Shown here one piece after another: positions 42,657 through 49,264 of a DNA stretch of 55,450 nucleotides; positions within the stretch are counted from its first letter, which is position 1, and the number at the start of each line of letters is the position of its first letter. Location of the stretch: assembly GCA_015232555.1 (NCBI GenBank), contig JADFZJ010000027.1, forward strand, positions 1 through 55,450. The letters are read 5' to 3'. A program made the position numbers and the translations under genes. Under the pieces are notes generated by a model. The model saw only the letters and a list, made by a program, of their open reading frames with translations. It did not search any database and was not told the origin of the DNA. This stretch comes from Desulfamplus sp. (GTDB lineage: Bacteria > Desulfobacterota > Desulfobacteria > Desulfobacterales > Desulfobacteraceae).

Positions 42657-43427
42657 TTATTCGTCAGAATATATGTCATAATCTGGATAGTATTTTTTTG
42701 CACAATTTTTACAGATACTATGGCTGAATTGTGCTTCTGAATGGGATTGAATATACTCCTCCATTTGCTGCCAATAGCCCTTGTCATCTCTGATGCTTTT
42801 ACAATGCATACATATCGGTAAAAACCCGCTTAATGTTTTTATCTCAGTAAGGGCATGTTCAAGATTTTCTTTTTCCTTTCTGAGCTGGCTTTCTGTATCC
42901 TTGATTCGCTGGTTTCTTCTTGCGTTTTCTATCGCAAGAGCACAAACTTCAATTATTGACATTGTAAGGTTAAGATAATGTTCCTTATATTCAGGAAAAC
43001 TTATCTCATCAATTTCAAGTAATCCAAGCTTGTTATCTTTATAACTTAACGTTACCCTGAAGCCTTTATTAGATTCTGTCCATTCATATTTTTTGTCAAA
43101 ATTTAAAAGACGGCTTTTAATTTTATCGTCCTCTTCTTCCATTGAAGGTATTAAAGAGTATAATTTTTCAGGCTGCTTATCCTTTTGTAAAGATATATAA
43201 AATGCTTTTGCTGGTGAAAAAAGAGTCTGAAATACATTAAGGATACTTTCAATTGACTGTTTCTCTGTCTCTGACTGTATAATCTGTGCCAAAAGGTCAA
43301 ATGTCATAGCATATTCAGCAGTTTGTCTTTTCGCAATTTTAAGTTCAATATCAGGTGTTGTTATCTCTTTATTGTCAATTAACAAATTAATCCCCCTAAA
43401 CCCAATTTGACATCCTGCAAAACCCAT
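42657..43427 (-). CDS. GAF-like sensory protein with C-terminal CxxC...CxxC motif
   Basis: 256 residues. The middle (about 45-170) reads as a GAF-like domain (IIQSETEKQSIESILNVFQ at its start, EVCALAIENARRNQ at its end). A coiled coil follows (about 175-195), then a C-terminal motif with CMHCKSIRDDKGYW, YIQSHSEAQFSHSICKNC. That Cys pattern (two CxxC pairs ~40 apart, with conserved His) is seen at the C-terminus of many receiver- or PAS-containing proteins and may bind zinc; its function is not known to me. No kinase domain is present. It begins 69 nt after the UroD-type gene, possibly in the same transcript. Confidence 0.8.
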   Translation of the reverse strand: MGFAGCQIGFRGINLLIDNKEITTPDIELKIAKRQTAEYAMTFDLLAQIIQSETEKQSIESILNVFQTLFSPAKAFYISLQKDKQPEKLYSLIPSMEEEDDKIKSRLLNFDKKYEWTESNKGFRVTLSYKDNKLGLLEIDEISFPEYKEHYLNLTMSIIEVCALAIENARRNQRIKDTESQLRKEKENLEHALTEIKTLSGFLPICMHCKSIRDDKGYWQQMEEYIQSHSEAQFSHSICKNCAKKYYPDYDIYSDE

Positions 43428-43496
43428 TGTCTATCCAGTAAACTCAAGGGAGCAATTCAAGTTTTGCAGGAACTCTATTATCCTAAAACTTATATT

Positions 43497-44540
43497 TTAA
43501 CAAATTAACGGATAACTACCCCATTTATGAACAGCGTCAGATATTGCCATTAATACCTCATCAGGAACCTGAAATGGAATTTCACCATGATTATCAGACA
43601 AAATAAATCCACCTCCTGCACCTGCCTGCGAAATAACTCTCTTTACATTATCCTCTGTTTCCTTAGGTGTCCAACGTCTCATTTCTATTCCATTCAGATT
43701 ACCCATAACTGTAAGTCTGTTTTTACAACTATTTTTTAACTCCTGAATGTTTTCTTCTACGCTGACTCCAACTATAGCCGTACCAGTATTAGCTATCTCT
43801 TCAATAATAGATAGACAGCGACCAGAAGCCATGTGTGTTGCGGTTGGTCCTTTAATTTTGGCTATGGTTCGTTTAGCAACTTCAAATCCTGTTTTAAGAT
43901 ACATCTCTTTAGTCGTAATTGTTGTTGAAGATAGAGGATCGAAATAGCATATTGCTGTAGTTCCAGCATCTAACTGTGCATTAGCCCAGTTTACACAAAA
44001 TTCTTCATTTATTTTCATCAGATGGCTAAACAAATCAGGTCTCTCATACATTAGCTCAATATATTTATCAAATCCCATCTGCATAACAGGCAATGAAAAT
44101 GGAGACATTACAACTCCAATAATCGGAACTTCATCTCCAACTTTTTCTTTAATCAGATGTGCTGATTTTAATACTTTATTTAGGCAGGCACTCTTTTTTA
44201 TATCAGGAATTTTCAGACTACTAATATCTTGAAAAATTTTAATAAAAGGCTCACCTGAATTTGCAGGTCCATCATCATGATATATTACCTCACCGCCGAA
44301 TGCCTCTATTTCAATCGGTGCATAGAAAAAATTATAAATAGAGTCATGGCGGTATTTGGCACGTAATCTTAACTGTCCTTCAGCTACGTTTTCGCCTTTG
44401 GAAAAATATTCTTTTATGGAGAGTCCCAACTCTTTAGCTCCGTGCATGGTCAGAAGCAGAAAAAAAGGAACTCGATCTGGCTCTTTATGCACTAATGTTG
44501 TTAAAACTCTTTGTAAAGATGTCATATTCTCTTTAATCAT
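43497..44540 (-). CDS. UroD-superfamily corrinoid methyltransferase (MtaA/CmuA-like)
   Basis: 347 residues in the UroD/MtaA fold. Typical stretches are TSLQRVLTTLVHKEPDRVPFF at the start and VVMSPFSLPVMQMGFDKYI, then GTTAICYFDPLSS and THMASGRCL, where His and Cys could be zinc ligands as in MtaA/CmuA. LTVMGNLNGIEMRRWTPKETE follows near the C-terminus. Such enzymes move methyl groups between a corrinoid protein and a thiol or halomethane. The ATG at 44540 overlaps the corrinoid gene stop (ATGA) and has GGAGG upstream. No MtaB, MttB or MtmB homologue is in the window, so the methyl donor is unknown. Confidence 0.86.
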   Translation of the reverse strand: MIKENMTSLQRVLTTLVHKEPDRVPFFLLLTMHGAKELGLSIKEYFSKGENVAEGQLRLRAKYRHDSIYNFFYAPIEIEAFGGEVIYHDDGPANSGEPFIKIFQDISSLKIPDIKKSACLNKVLKSAHLIKEKVGDEVPIIGVVMSPFSLPVMQMGFDKYIELMYERPDLFSHLMKINEEFCVNWANAQLDAGTTAICYFDPLSSTTITTKEMYLKTGFEVAKRTIAKIKGPTATHMASGRCLSIIEEIANTGTAIVGVSVEENIQELKNSCKNRLTVMGNLNGIEMRRWTPKETEDNVKRVISQAGAGGGFILSDNHGEIPFQVPDEVLMAISDAVHKWGSYPLIC

Positions 44541-45166
44541 AAGCTGCCTCCCATAACACTTTTTATGACTAATACAGCCTCTGAAGCAGTGCTGCACATA
44601 GCATCAGCTCGAACCTCCTGCCACAGTTGCTTATCAAATCTAAAAGGTGCTCCGCCAACCACTATTTTTACATCAAGATTTAAAGAATCAAGTTTTTCTT
44701 TAAGAGGTTTCACCTTAAGTGCTGAATGAAGCATCAGAACAGATACGAGTATGATCTTTATCTTATCGTTGTTAATACGTTGAACCAATTCTTCAACTTC
44801 CATTATTCCGTAATCTAAAAGATCAAATCCGCTTGCTCTTAAAAGTGAATATACAATTGTTTTTCCAAGTTTGTGATGATCTGAAAGCACACATATTGCC
44901 ATTTTAGGTTGATCTTTTCTGTCTGGATCGCCGGGAGGTAATACCTCGTCAATAAGCTCTTCACAAATACGCCCAGCCATGTAAACTTGAGACAAGGCAA
45001 ATACACCACTCTTCCACCCCGCTCCTATACGCTCAAGAGCTGCAATAACTACATTTTCAATAAAACTGATTTTATCAATAGAGACAGCATCTTCCAACAT
45101 CTCTCTTGCCGCTACTCTGTTTACAGATAAAAGTGCCTCCATAAAATTACTTATATTTTTTTCCAT
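44537..45166 (-). CDS. Methyltransferase corrinoid protein (cobalamin-binding)
   Basis: 209 residues. An N-terminal helical cap domain (about 1-85) precedes the Rossmann-like B12-binding domain. The base-off cobalamin signature DxHxxG is present as D96-H97-H98-K99-L100-G101 (His98 is the expected cobalt ligand), followed by an S/L-rich strand VSVLMLHS (142-149) and GGAPF (171-175). It should carry a corrinoid and shuttle a methyl group, with the UroD-type protein as partner. It starts 3 nt after the hybrid kinase stop and overlaps the next gene by 4 nt, a tight translational unit. Confidence 0.92.
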   Translation of the reverse strand: MEKNISNFMEALLSVNRVAAREMLEDAVSIDKISFIENVVIAALERIGAGWKSGVFALSQVYMAGRICEELIDEVLPPGDPDRKDQPKMAICVLSDHHKLGKTIVYSLLRASGFDLLDYGIMEVEELVQRINNDKIKIILVSVLMLHSALKVKPLKEKLDSLNLDVKIVVGGAPFRFDKQLWQEVRADAMCSTASEAVLVIKSVMGGSL

Positions 45167-45169
45167 AAA

Positions 45170-48100
45170 TTACTCTTTTAATTTATTTGGTTTAAGAACA
45201 TCACGTATTTTTTTATCCATATCACTTATCGTAACAGGCTTCATTAAAAATCCTTTAATACCCATAGAAAGAGCCTGCTCTTCTGACATGATTGTGCTGA
45301 ATCCCGTAAATAACAGTATTGGAATATCAGGACGTATTTTAATCAACTCAACTGCAAGTTTATCTCCTGACATAGACGGCATTGCCATATCTGTAATGAC
45401 CATATCAAATTTATCGGGGCTGGAACGAAATGCTTCAAGAGCTTCAATACTGCTGCTGCGTGAAGTAACCTTATAGCCTAACCGTTCTAACATACCTTTT
45501 TGCAATGCAATCAGTACAATTTCATCATCTACAAGAAGTATCCGTTCATTACCTCCCTGCATGGGTATGTTTACTTGAAGGACATCATCTTTTTTCAGAT
45601 AACTCTCAGCAACAGGCAGATAGATATTAAATTCTGTACCTTTGCCAATCTTACTATTTAAACGAATAAAACCACCGCAATTCGTTACAATTCCATGAAC
45701 AGATGAAAGTCCAAGACCAGTTCCTTTACCCTGCTTTTTTGTTGTAAAAAATGGGTCAAAAATTTTATCTCTTATATCTTCTGGTATCCCTGTGCCTGTA
45801 TCAGATACTGTCAAACAGGCATAAATCCCTTTCTGAATATTATTATCGATTACATCCTGTTCATTTAATTCGGGATTTAACTCCACCTCTTTGAGGGAGA
45901 CGGTCATTGTCCCCCCTGTCTCTTCCATAGCATGATAAGCATTGGTTGCAAGGTTCATTACAATCTGATGAATCTGTGTCGGGTCAGCGTTTATTAATCC
46001 ACACTCTTTCTTGATATCGTTTTTAATGTCAATGGTTGCAGGGATTGTAGAACGAATGAGTTTTAAAGCCTCTTTCACAATATGCTGCATCTTCATCAAC
46101 CTCACTTCACTTTTTTCCTGACGGGCAAATGTAAGAATCTGCTTTACCATATCTTTGGCTCGCATAGAAGCAGCATAAATCTCATCAAGGCTGGAACGCA
46201 ATGGACTATCTTTAGGAATATCTTCTGACAGCATCTCTGTATAACCCATAATCGGGACAAGAATATTATTGAAATCATGGGCAATACCACCTGCAAGTAC
46301 ACCGATAGCCTCCATTTTCTGGGATTGCTGGAGTTTATTTTCAATTGTCTTAATATCAGTAATATCACGAAGAACATGCAGGATTGAAACAGTATTGTCT
46401 GTATGACAAATTGGCGAGAAAGAAACACTGTAGTTTTTATTGTCATTTGGACTGACAACTTCAGTTTTTATTGAATCGCCATTCAGCACTTTTTTGCTTA
46501 AACACCATGGACACGGTTCATTAAATCCATAAAGTGACTTATGGCAACACTCTCCTACAGAATTATGACCAACTTTTTTTGTCATTGCAAAATTCATATA
46601 TTCAATTATATGTTCTGATGAACATATAAATGCGGCATCATCCATAGATTCCATCATAGAACGATATTTTTCTTCACTTTCCCTGAGGGATAATTCAGTC
46701 TTTTTATGTTCGGTTATATCCCTGAACTCAACTACTCTGACAGTTTTTCCTTTATAAGGAATATTCCGAGCTTCCAAACGCATTGGATATTTTTCCCCGT
46801 TTTTACGTAAACCAACAGCTTCATAGGGCTTTTCGTAACCAGCAAGAATATTGTTCATAACTATGGCACGGGTCTTTTCAGATATGAGTAGTAAACCGTT
46901 CATACCTATAAGTTCATCAATGGAATAACCAGTCATGTCCGATAAACCTTGATTACATTCAAGAATCACTCCCTTATCATGAATTGCAATACCGCCAAAA
47001 GAGGCATTATGAAGGGCTTTAAAACGTTCTTCACTCTCCCGAAGGGCATCCTCACCTCTCTTGATCTCAACAAATTTCCAGACAGAATCCATAAGCAGGG
47101 TAAGTTGCAGCACATCAATTTCATTATAATCACGTTCTTTGTTAGCAATACCTAATACAGCCACTATCTTCTCATTATTAAACACTGGGATAGTCATGAA
47201 TTTATTTATATTGACATGACCTTCTGGATACCCCTTTTTAGAAGGATGATAGGCATTGTAGTCATTTACAATTATAGCTTTCCGTTGCCGAACAGCCTCA
47301 CCCCAGATACCAGTCTTCTCAAGTTCATACACGGTTGGTGGTTGAACAATTCTACACTCGTCCATTACAGCATGAGACCAGGTGTTAAGAGTAAATTGCT
47401 TCGACTCTTCATTATAAAAAAGGATATAGCCGATTTTGCTGCCAGTGAGCTTAAGCGCTTCATTTAGTGCATTTTCAAGGAACTCTTCTGATGTATTTGC
47501 ACGATACTGCATAATGTTGAGCATAGTTTTAAGACGTATCTCATTTAGTAATCTTTTTTCTTCTGCATGTTTTCGCTCAGTTATATCAACCTCTGAGCCT
47601 GCCATACGTAAAACTTCACCTGCTTCATTAAACAAAGAGATACCGCGATCAGAAATCCATTTATATGAACCATTTTTACACCTGACTCTGTATTCTTCTT
47701 CAAATATAGGAGTTTTTTCTTTAAAATGATTATTTAAAGCTGCCATTACACGAGATATGTCATCAGGATGAATATTCTTTTTCCATTCATACTCGCTATT
47801 GCTTACCTCATTTTCTGCATAACCCCGCATAGACTTCCATTGTGGTGAAAAAAAGACTCTTTTGTTTTTAACATCCCAATCCCAAATTGCTGCAGAAGTT
47901 CCTGCCATAACAAGTTCGTAACGTTCAGTGCGTTCACGCAGTGCAGCTTCGGCATCCAGTCGTTCCATCTCGGCGGCAGCTCTCACTGCCACCATTTCCA
48001 TCATAGTTTCTGCAAGCCATCTATCTTTCAACGGTTTTCTTCCAATAACTGCAATCAAACCAATTGGTTTGATGTTATGGTTGAAAAGTGTAACTCCTAT

Positions 48101-49264
48101 ATAACTCTCTGCACACATTTCTTGAAGAACAAGGTCTTTAGGAAATAATTGACTTACTTTTGATGGAAAGCAGCAGATGGTCTTACCAACAGCTTCACCG
48201 CATGGTGTATCTTTCAGGGTATATGTTATGTTGTCATCAAAATGGTCATCTGACCAGAGTGCAACTGTCCGAGCTGTTAGTCCGTCTCCCTCAAGGATAT
48301 CGATACAGACAAAATCCATCTCAAGGCTTTGGGCTAAATATCTTGATATAACTTTAAAAAAAGGCTCATCTCCATTCCCGCCGGCAGTTTGTGCAAGAAA
48401 AGCATGAGTTTCTTCTATTCTCTTACGGTCTGTTATATCAATTGCAACGCCTTGATAGCGTATCACTTTGCCATATTCATCATGTTCTGGTTCTCCACGC
48501 GACATGATCCATTTTTGCTTACCATCTTCATGATTTACACGCCACTCAACATTTAACTTTTCTCCTGAACATGCGGCAGCTTGAACTATTGACGATGCAA
48601 TCTCTCTATCATTAGGGTTAATAGATTGCAGCCATAAGTCATAAGAAGGTTTATTACCTTTATATGATTTCAGACCATAAATATCCCATATTTCATCTGA
48701 CCATATATTTTCATTTGTTCTTAAATCCCACTCCCAACAACCAGCTTTTGCGGATTTGAGAGCAAGTTTTAAACGGTCATTACTCTCTTTTAACGCAACT
48801 GTGGTATGATTTATTTCTGTTATGTCATGGATTATTGAAAATAGACAATCTTTACCTTTAAAATGGGCGGGAGAAGAATAAACTTCTACAGAAACATTCT
48901 CTCCGCCAGATAGTTTATGTATAAAGTTAAAATAATTTCTCTCTTCGGCAAAAGCCTTCTTCATCTCTAAGTCAATTTCTTCCTTCGTCAATTGATTAAT
49001 GTCACAAATTCTTAGTTTTTCAAATTCTTCAACTGAATAGCCATAAAACATTCGAGCTGCTTTATTTGCTCTCACAATACCACCACTGTTAACATCAATA
49101 AGCAACATTACTGCATGATGATTTTCAAACATTAAGTGGCATAGTTTATCACTCTGTTTTAACGCCTCTTTGGTATGCTTAAGCTCGTATTTAACTTGCT
49201 CCAGCTCTTCGTGTTTTTGTTCTAATTCTTTAAAGGTGTATTTTCTATCCATAAAGAGATCCAT
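45170..49264 (-). CDS. Multi-PAS/GAF hybrid histidine kinase (1364 residues)
   Basis: Cytosolic sensor, no TM helices. By eye the order is PAS1 (about 30-145), PAS2 (150-275), GAF1 (286-435), PAS3 (445-570), GAF2 (591-735), PAS4 (743-862) and PAS5 (865-980). The HisKA box [11 protein letters not shown] follows (about 992), then an HATPase with [22 protein letters not shown], and a receiver (about 1240-1360) with LLVDDEIVL and [12 protein letters not shown]5 has [16 protein letters not shown] (about 905-920), possible metal or redox cysteines. The start at 49264 has AAGG upstream; an apparent extension to 49327 reads through the hairpin and is rejected. It is the first gene of the corrinoid module and has no DNA-binding output. 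Confidence 0.93.

Follow-up and report, generated by a model that had tools for sequence, protein, structure and literature searches.

A conserved corrinoid protein/UroD operon with exchangeable signalling genes: a candidate methyl-transfer chemoreceptor

Introduction

In Methanosarcina, the genes of the sensor kinases RdmS and MsmS are positioned by corrinoid/methyl-transfer genes, and the partners of these kinases are corrinoid/coenzyme M (CoM)-methyltransferase fusions. Here we analyse a locus of Desulfamplus sp. in which genes for a corrinoid protein and a methyltransferase of the UroD fold stand in one unit with genes for signalling proteins. It lies in a stretch of 55,450 nucleotides (nt), hereafter the window, which is the whole of contig C26 (JADFZJ010000027.1, assembly GCA_015232555.1), one of 106 contigs that make up a 3.82-Mb draft genome. 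What we propose for the function of this corrinoid-UroD-GAF operon is inferred from genome anatomy.

Several described systems share elements with the unit. RdmS and MsmS of Methanosarcina acetivorans are likewise sensor kinases associated with corrinoid/methyl-transfer genes (PMC11784639, PMC11619418), but RdmS is without an H-box and not an autokinase, and MsmS is likely alike (PMC11784639), whereas the window kinase has a HisKA domain with the H-box HDFNN. The mec cassette of anaerobic dichloromethane degraders has the same order of kinase, corrinoid protein and UroD-fold protein and also ties a sensor kinase to a corrinoid methyl-transfer set, made up of the kinase MecA, the corrinoid protein MecB, the UroD-superfamily methyltransferases I (MT-I) MecC, MecE and MecI, the regulator MecD and the methyltransferase II (MT-II) MecF; MecC and MecE are proposed to be UroD-fold substrate methyltransferases (PMC9768040). 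As described, it includes more than one protein of the UroD superfamily, besides an MT-II and a transporter, has a PocR domain in MecA and is thought to be catabolic (PMC9768040), whereas the window unit has one UroD, no MT-II and a dedicated GAF/DUF1638 gene.

UroD-fold substrate methyltransferases are known from the Cdm system (CdmB MT-I, CdmC corrinoid protein, CdmA MT-II) and from the O-demethylases of acetogens, and CdmB exemplifies an MT-I that works on its own corrinoid protein without zinc; unlike the window unit, the Cdm system includes an MT-II (PMC13222342). The MtaA-like Type 1 mlp clusters of many anaerobes resemble the unit in combining UroD-superfamily and corrinoid proteins while the clusters described have no H4folate methyltransferase, but they have several Mlps and a Ram/RACE activase, and the text nowhere uses the words 'sensor' or 'signal' (PMC10418091). 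Such clusters are recognised by at least Mlp2 and Mlp3, Ram/RACE and a corrinoid protein in one place; the window unit has one UroD, no RACo and a sensor gene instead. In Phaeobacter, a DUF1638 protein (PF07796) works with a corrinoid protein, being needed together with a RamA-like activase for the split, B12-dependent methionine synthase, but it is stand-alone and has a metabolic phenotype (PMC5764234), whereas relatives of the window unit fuse DUF1638 to GAF and kinase or GGDEF domains, and the third gene of the window is without DUF1638. We found no description of a corrinoid-UroD-kinase or corrinoid-UroD-GGDEF sensor operon in the open-licence PubMed Central papers that we searched.

Results

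The four-gene unit of the window

On the minus strand, the unit reads hybrid kinase, corrinoid protein, UroD-fold methyltransferase and GAF/four-Cys protein, the successive genes being 3, -4 and 69 nt apart:

45170..49264, minus strand: hybrid histidine kinase with PAS/GAF repeats, HisKA, HATPase and REC domains (open reading frame (ORF) and Pfam); probably the local output partner
45167..45169, minus strand: 3-nt gap between the kinase stop and the ATG of the corrinoid gene; equal spacing in the Desulfamplus loci L032 and L033
44537..45166, minus strand: corrinoid protein of 209 residues (aa), B12-binding_2 cap and B12-binding domain with DxHxxG (ORF, Pfam, alignment)
44537..44540, minus strand: ATGA overlap of the corrinoid and UroD genes, read from the sequence
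43497..44540, minus strand: UroD-fold corrinoid methyltransferase, putatively MT-I-like (Pfam and alignments); with a GTG start the ORF reaches 44597
42657..43427, minus strand: third gene, 256 aa, GAF domain and four-Cys tail, a short form of the DUF1638-GAF-kinase/GGDEF gene of relatives (ORF, HMM, fold model)
42894..43319, minus strand: system-specific GAF domain, found in 2/198 genomes of the phylum at E 1e-6, both times at this operon
42660..42842, minus strand: C-terminal four-Cys tail (CxxC...CxxC), four copies in the genome, no Pfam family above cut-off

When the junctions were re-read, the four ORFs, their order, the 3-nt gap, the 4-nt overlap, the 69-nt gap and the DxHxxG motif reported in the initial annotation proved exact to the base. 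The 69 nt, measured to the longest form of the third ORF, are a minimum: where the GAF gene begins is uncertain, and in its Desulfamplus ortholog in L032 the ORF listed begins about 14 codons later. The kinase measures 1364 aa from the ATG at 49264 or 1360 aa from that at 49252, and its Pfam scores, all above cut-off (HisKA 39.4, HATPase_c 79.5 and REC 70.8 bits), identify it as a hybrid histidine kinase, with its H-box at residue 996 of the 1364-aa form. The corrinoid protein matches PF02310 (62.5 bits) and PF02607 (33.2 bits) above cut-off, and the D96, H98 and G101 of its DxHxxG motif (D96-x-H98-x-x-G101) are invariant in 70/70 aligned relatives, window included. Its best-scoring solved relatives are methylamine corrinoid proteins; with 72.7 bits against a cut-off of 215.3 bits it falls outside the methylamine-type family TIGR02370, and in NCBIfam both it and the UroD protein lie far below the cut-off of every subfamily matched. 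The third protein has no Pfam match, DUF1638 (cut-off 27 bits) included, and its GAF fold is backed by an AlphaFold2 model (mean pLDDT 76) and a weak Foldseek match (best E 2.6e-5), weak also by TM-score (query-normalised 0.27-0.51 in 50 rows). Neither an MT-II nor a further UroD protein, as in the mec cassette, was found in the four-gene unit by Pfam.

Conserved linkage in relatives

A scan of 84,980 species genomes with a UroD alignment returned 160 relatives, of which the best 80 (57-96% identity to the window UroD) were kept and their domain content read by a stop-to-stop HMM scan of the plus strand of each locus; two loci, L087 and L105, are the same contigs as in genomes G330 and G126 and enter the 80 only once each. 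Among named relatives, those nearest to the window UroD are from Desulfamplus bins (96 and 87% identity). A corrinoid domain lies within 1.5 kb of UroD in 78/80 relatives, the other two being L110 and L101, whose contig starts inside the UroD gene. Downstream of UroD, a GAF and/or DUF1638 domain follows in 69/72 loci, counted in the next 2.6 kb of those of the 80 that have at least 1.5 kb there, with DUF1638 detected by our own HMM and not the Pfam model.

What stands behind these domains varies. Histidine kinases make up 51/72 outputs (46 DUF1638+GAF+HATPase, 5 GAF+HATPase), GGDEF domains 7/72 (all DUF1638+GAF+GGDEF, verified by Pfam in 7 proteins; examples are L092 of Methylobacter and L065 of Nitrospirae) and four-Cys tails 9/72 (7 GAF+four-Cys, 2 DUF1638+GAF+four-Cys); in two loci the output was not resolved and in three there was none. 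GAF and HATPase domains share a single ORF in 49/51 kinase loci, 42 of which carry DUF1638 on it as well. Pfam places DUF1638 above cut-off in 11/14 third genes tested among window-clade relatives and the more distant locus L030 (L024, L055, L070, L079, L103, L030, L063, L064, L065, L089 and L102), below cut-off in L092 and L095, and gives no match in L025; it also bears out the kinase, GGDEF and HD outputs.

The 81 UroD sequences, window included, come from 14 named phyla (five rows unassigned); the enzyme pair with its dedicated signalling gene is spread over many unrelated bacteria and some archaea. In a quick tree of UroD, 28 changes of phylum are needed against a least possible 13, which suggests transfer across phyla, although the hosts are mostly metagenome bins.

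Kinase genes are common in such genomes, and one might suspect chance neighbours or an assembly artefact; we regard this as wholly implausible. The linkage (78/80 and 69/72 over 14 named phyla), ATGA overlaps available at 49/67 measured corrinoid/UroD junctions, and the presence of the unit in the complete chromosome of Desulfonema magnum strain 4be13 (L047) and in Desulfocicer vacuolatum DSM 3385 (L081) all speak against it. As a control, no kinase, GGDEF or DUF1638 domain was found with our own HMMs in the 1.5-kb flanks of 30 URO-D loci, which are the best PF01208 hits (18 above 400 bits, many HemE-like by score) and have a detected corrinoid gene in only 4/30; with these empty flanks, the linkage counts rule out a chance neighbourhood. 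The idea of the initial annotation that sensing and methyl transfer belong together held in relatives, and a check for loss of the linkage there, which would have told against it, found the linkage retained.

Some loci depart from the usual arrangement. In L082, L084, L085 and L097 (cable bacteria of Electrothrix and a Desulfobulbaceae bin) UroD precedes the corrinoid gene, and in L082 and L084 a second UroD follows it. Single ORFs join corrinoid protein and UroD in a Brocadia bin and UroD and DUF1638 in a Spirochaete bin (L074 and L094); if real and not sequencing errors, they would argue for physical contact of the products.

The signalling partner

The initial annotation had taken the large hybrid kinase for the coupled partner. 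Close orthologs of its C-terminal part stand just upstream of the corrinoid gene in 3/80 relatives (71, 66 and 65% identity), at 3, 3 and 54 nt in L032, L033 and L034; with close orthologs in three loci only, the large kinase is ruled out as the conserved partner. Judged from gene neighbourhoods, the conserved signalling partner is instead the gene after UroD, and the 1364-aa kinase is only a local output. By its adjacency, this kinase is the probable partner of the window GAF protein. An ORF with a HATPase domain ends less than 500 bp before the corrinoid gene in 5/9 four-Cys loci (L032, L033, L036, L037 and L053; not L035, L042, L079 and L087) against 6/52 others (p 0.007, for loci that are related and not independent), and a looser count of any upstream HATPase or receiver hit gives 7/9 against 8/52. 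An upstream kinase is thus commoner where the third gene ends in a four-Cys tail, an association that is suggestive only.

In this genome, a receiver-domain protein (C33) and a protein that directly follows a hybrid kinase (C52) carry the four-Cys tail (consensus PICxxCKxIRDxxGYW...SHxICxxC) as well. On the latter contig (L173 8783-9211), an ORF fragment matches residues 146-243 of the window kinase with 91% identity over 98 residues, which suggests a duplicated or exchanged sensor segment of that kinase. A 257-aa protein with a window-type tail follows a 375-aa B12-domain protein on C18 (L004 6463-8348); a W...EH stretch, seen by eye, is reminiscent of CarH photoreceptors.

Identity and active site of the UroD-fold protein

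The methyltransferase belongs to the URO-D superfamily (PF01208 191.5 bits, gathering score 23.9). Narrower assignments were rejected by score, both to MtaA/CmuA (TIGR01463 107.2 against 235.4 bits; MtaA equivalog NF040654 100.4 of 400) and to the HemE of the genome (TIGR01464 71.7 against 302.95 bits). Its closest solved relative is the CoM methyltransferase 4ay7 (E 6e-18). MtaA/CmuA methyltransferases carry a thiol-activating zinc site with the motif HxC...C; aligned to 4ay7, the first zinc-ligand Cys is replaced by Ala in 79/81 and by Ser in 2/81 UroD sequences, and the region of the second Cys, aligned to MtaA by eye outside the HMMER match, reads SDNHGE in the window. An MtaA-type thiol methyltransferase role is unlikely on this alignment, and because Ala replaces the first zinc ligand, the protein looks more like MT-I than like MtaA. 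Its fold family, corrinoid partner and conserved residues make it a candidate MT-I-like methyltransferase.

The initial annotation had set the locus apart as lacking a substrate methyltransferase and an activase. Both are indeed missing from the unit beyond the UroD itself, while the genome encodes them outside it, with activase-type proteins of the RACo family on C70 and C84 and an MttB-family gene on C61; the lack of a substrate methyltransferase ceases to be a puzzle, with UroD-fold proteins known or proposed as MT-I and this one closer to that type.

H255, D335, N336, H337, E339, E96, E98 and D220 are kept in 79 to 81 of the 81 UroD sequences. Mean pairwise identity is 64% for UroD, 49% for the corrinoid protein and about 30% each for GAF and DUF1638 (81, 70, 68 and 59 alignment rows, incomplete domain hits dropped), and this gradient suggests one fixed ligand that would be read by diverging outputs.

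Co-divergence and co-loss

Pairwise distances of UroD, corrinoid protein, GAF and DUF1638 correlate with r 0.60-0.75, a level reached in 0/999 permutations, shared ancestry of the hosts included. The GAF subfamily that marks the operon in two genomes of the phylum turned up once, and only once, in each of nine further searches of genomes with UroD and the corrinoid gene (G330, G126, G395, G396 and G398-G402; G126 is already one of the two). In G119 and the genome of L110, which have UroD, no GAF and no close corrinoid relative were found (the best corrinoid matches had E 8e-24 and 9e-25, while six other genomes searched gave 6e-63 to 1e-104). In L110, alone among the 81 UroD sequences, D335, N336 and H337 are all three replaced; the copy in G119 has H337N and N113L. 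At L045 the third gene is not adjacent, and the GAF lies elsewhere in its genome. By these comparisons, corrinoid protein, UroD, GAF and DUF1638 form a module that travels and decays as a unit.

DUF1638 and the wider operon group

At the 30 best-scoring DUF1638 loci of the phylum (L112-L141, flanks of 1.5 kb at most), a corrinoid domain is found in 13 and a RACo-type activase in 8. DUF1638 is thus a corrinoid-associated family, which in the relatives is fused into kinases and GGDEF proteins; fold searches with a DUF1638-GAF-kinase model returned kinase domains.

This genome encodes one further URO-D protein (C10, L001 8344-15018), which is only distantly related to that of the window and stands in the order corrinoid protein-UroD-DUF1638-histidine kinase, then hybrid kinase. 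The draft genome has just these two URO-D matches, both corrinoid-linked, and no evident HemE. An alternative haem route would account for the missing HemE. At L030, another distant corrinoid-UroD pair, Pfam finds DUF1638 fused to PAS and HD domains. Corrinoid protein, UroD and DUF1638 also occur together in G153, G042 (corrinoid gene cut by the contig end), G027 and G067, with UroD identities of 25-31%, differences at the conserved UroD positions and, as output, a kinase in three and an HD domain in the fourth. Among nine UroD matches of the phylum outside this genome, G119 and G374 are without corrinoid/DUF1638 partners. This set, a lead and not a census, suggests a receptor family with differing specificities. 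A further stretch of this genome (C9, L002 13-6655) encodes a B12-binding protein, then a small protein and three kinase/receiver proteins, with no UroD in the stretch.

That DUF1638 accompanies corrinoid reductive activation would suit a cobamide or redox sensor, in which the kinase module reads the presence of the corrinoid or its Co(I)/Co(II) state and UroD is a ligand-binding or docking subunit without turnover. The loss of the first MtaA zinc-site Cys in 81/81 sequences and the lack of a methyl acceptor recurring beside the operon point the same way, but a docking subunit would hardly keep the eight residues listed above so constant (79 to 81 of the 81 sequences), the Cdm system shows that an MT-I of the UroD fold can work without zinc (PMC13222342), and DUF1638 is missing from 12/69 third genes. 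We consider such a sensor improbable.

Genes beside the operon

Within 3 kb of the operon lie 229 ORFs, and the scan covered the 131 of these, in 60/80 loci, that are on the same strand, measure at least 130 aa and carry neither kinase nor receiver domains. Among these and in neighbour clusters, no recurrent metabolic family was seen: no Pfam family occurs in more than 2/102 or 3/29 neighbours (a secretion-tail domain being the 3/29 case), for the 25 commonest of 146 and of 62 families, respectively, so that a lone MT-II gene may lie beside some locus. For pterin-binding MT-II, the absence of a recurrent gene rests on the clustering and these two Pfam scans. Clustering was sparse, with an ABC-exporter-like protein in 7/81 loci, about 5 kb or more away, as the largest group; one four-locus cluster at distance 0 consists of ORFs overlapping UroD itself, on the opposite strand in the example inspected. 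RACo and MttB queries matched neighbours in one locus each (L057; L089 with two ORFs). A cassette of the mec type is likewise not apparent, with the only other URO-D of the genome on C10 and no recurrent neighbour in relatives.

These neighbours bear on a rival explanation, in which UroD and the corrinoid protein would be a small demethylase that serves catabolism or salvage, using a substrate for carbon or energy, and has regulators dedicated to it. The methyl group would pass to an acceptor enzyme encoded elsewhere, and the sensor gene would just control expression, as suggested for MecA of the mec cassette. UroD-fold MT-I enzymes are established (PMC13222342), mec shares the order kinase-corrinoid-UroD (PMC9768040), RACo-family activases exist elsewhere in the genome, and the high conservation of UroD would fit. 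Set against this, the 131 neighbours and the clusters show no recurring MT-II, transporter or other family of metabolism, the gene closely following UroD is a signalling gene whose GAF is confined to this operon in 198 genomes at E 1e-6, GGDEF proteins serve as outputs besides two-component kinases, and in many relatives the corrinoid-associated DUF1638 is fused into the kinase itself. We judge the demethylase unlikely, if deserving of more weight than a cobamide or redox sensor.

Discussion

We think it fairly probable that the corrinoid protein and UroD are the input half of a chemoreceptor and that the following GAF gene couples this input to a signalling output. UroD would use one particular small compound as methyl donor for the corrinoid, turning Co(I) into CH3-Co(III); the GAF protein, in most relatives with DUF1638, would dock on the corrinoid protein, alone or in complex with UroD, and report its state; and the signal would leave through a fused histidine kinase or a diguanylate cyclase, in the window probably through the hybrid kinase just upstream. 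This supposes that UroD is catalytically active, that the components touch, and that what is sensed is methylation, not ligand binding or the redox state of cobalt. A sensory role is indicated because the outputs behind one input are interchangeable (histidine kinase, GGDEF, four-Cys tail; HD in the sister group), because no metabolic family recurs beside the operon and because the corrinoid-associated DUF1638 is fused into kinases and GGDEF proteins; the more frequent upstream kinase beside four-Cys third genes would add to this, suggestively only. An enzyme pair that stays the same while its signalling outputs are exchanged resembles the input module of a sensor.

Several observations weigh against the chemoreceptor. 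The third gene of the window has neither DUF1638 nor a kinase domain, its pairing with the hybrid kinase rests on adjacency, and that kinase has PAS and GAF sensors of its own. Among the relatives, 3/72 loci have no third gene nearby (L045, L084 and L110), 12/69 third genes are without DUF1638, and the window GAF subfamily has no match in the sister operons of G153, G042, G027 and G067. The high conservation of UroD would suit an ordinary enzyme as well, and single active-site changes occur in operons with all partners (H255L in L040, D335E in L061, E98Q in L109 and others). No MT-II or activase recurs beside the operon, which leaves the reset of the receptor unaccounted for. The 80 relatives, picked from 160 by likeness to the window UroD, represent one clade, and most are metagenome bins.

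The wider proposal, which we put forward tentatively and somewhat short of conviction, is a new class of chemoreceptor in which the substrate is sensed through methyl transfer to a dedicated corrinoid protein, a GAF protein, usually DUF1638-GAF, reads the methylation and drives interchangeable outputs, the cassette moves between phyla of anaerobes, and sister operons with other UroD active sites are receptors for other methyl compounds. The parts belong to known families, and the mechanism is putative. Even as a demethylase or redox sensor, the genes would make up a widespread operon family for which we found no description.

Known bacterial sensing of small molecules works mainly by binding, and sensing by corrinoid methyl transfer would, if true, be a different principle. 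It would give DUF1638 a role in signalling from corrinoids, hint at the way in which some anaerobes perceive methylated compounds, and offer natural modules with kinase or cyclic-di-GMP read-outs.

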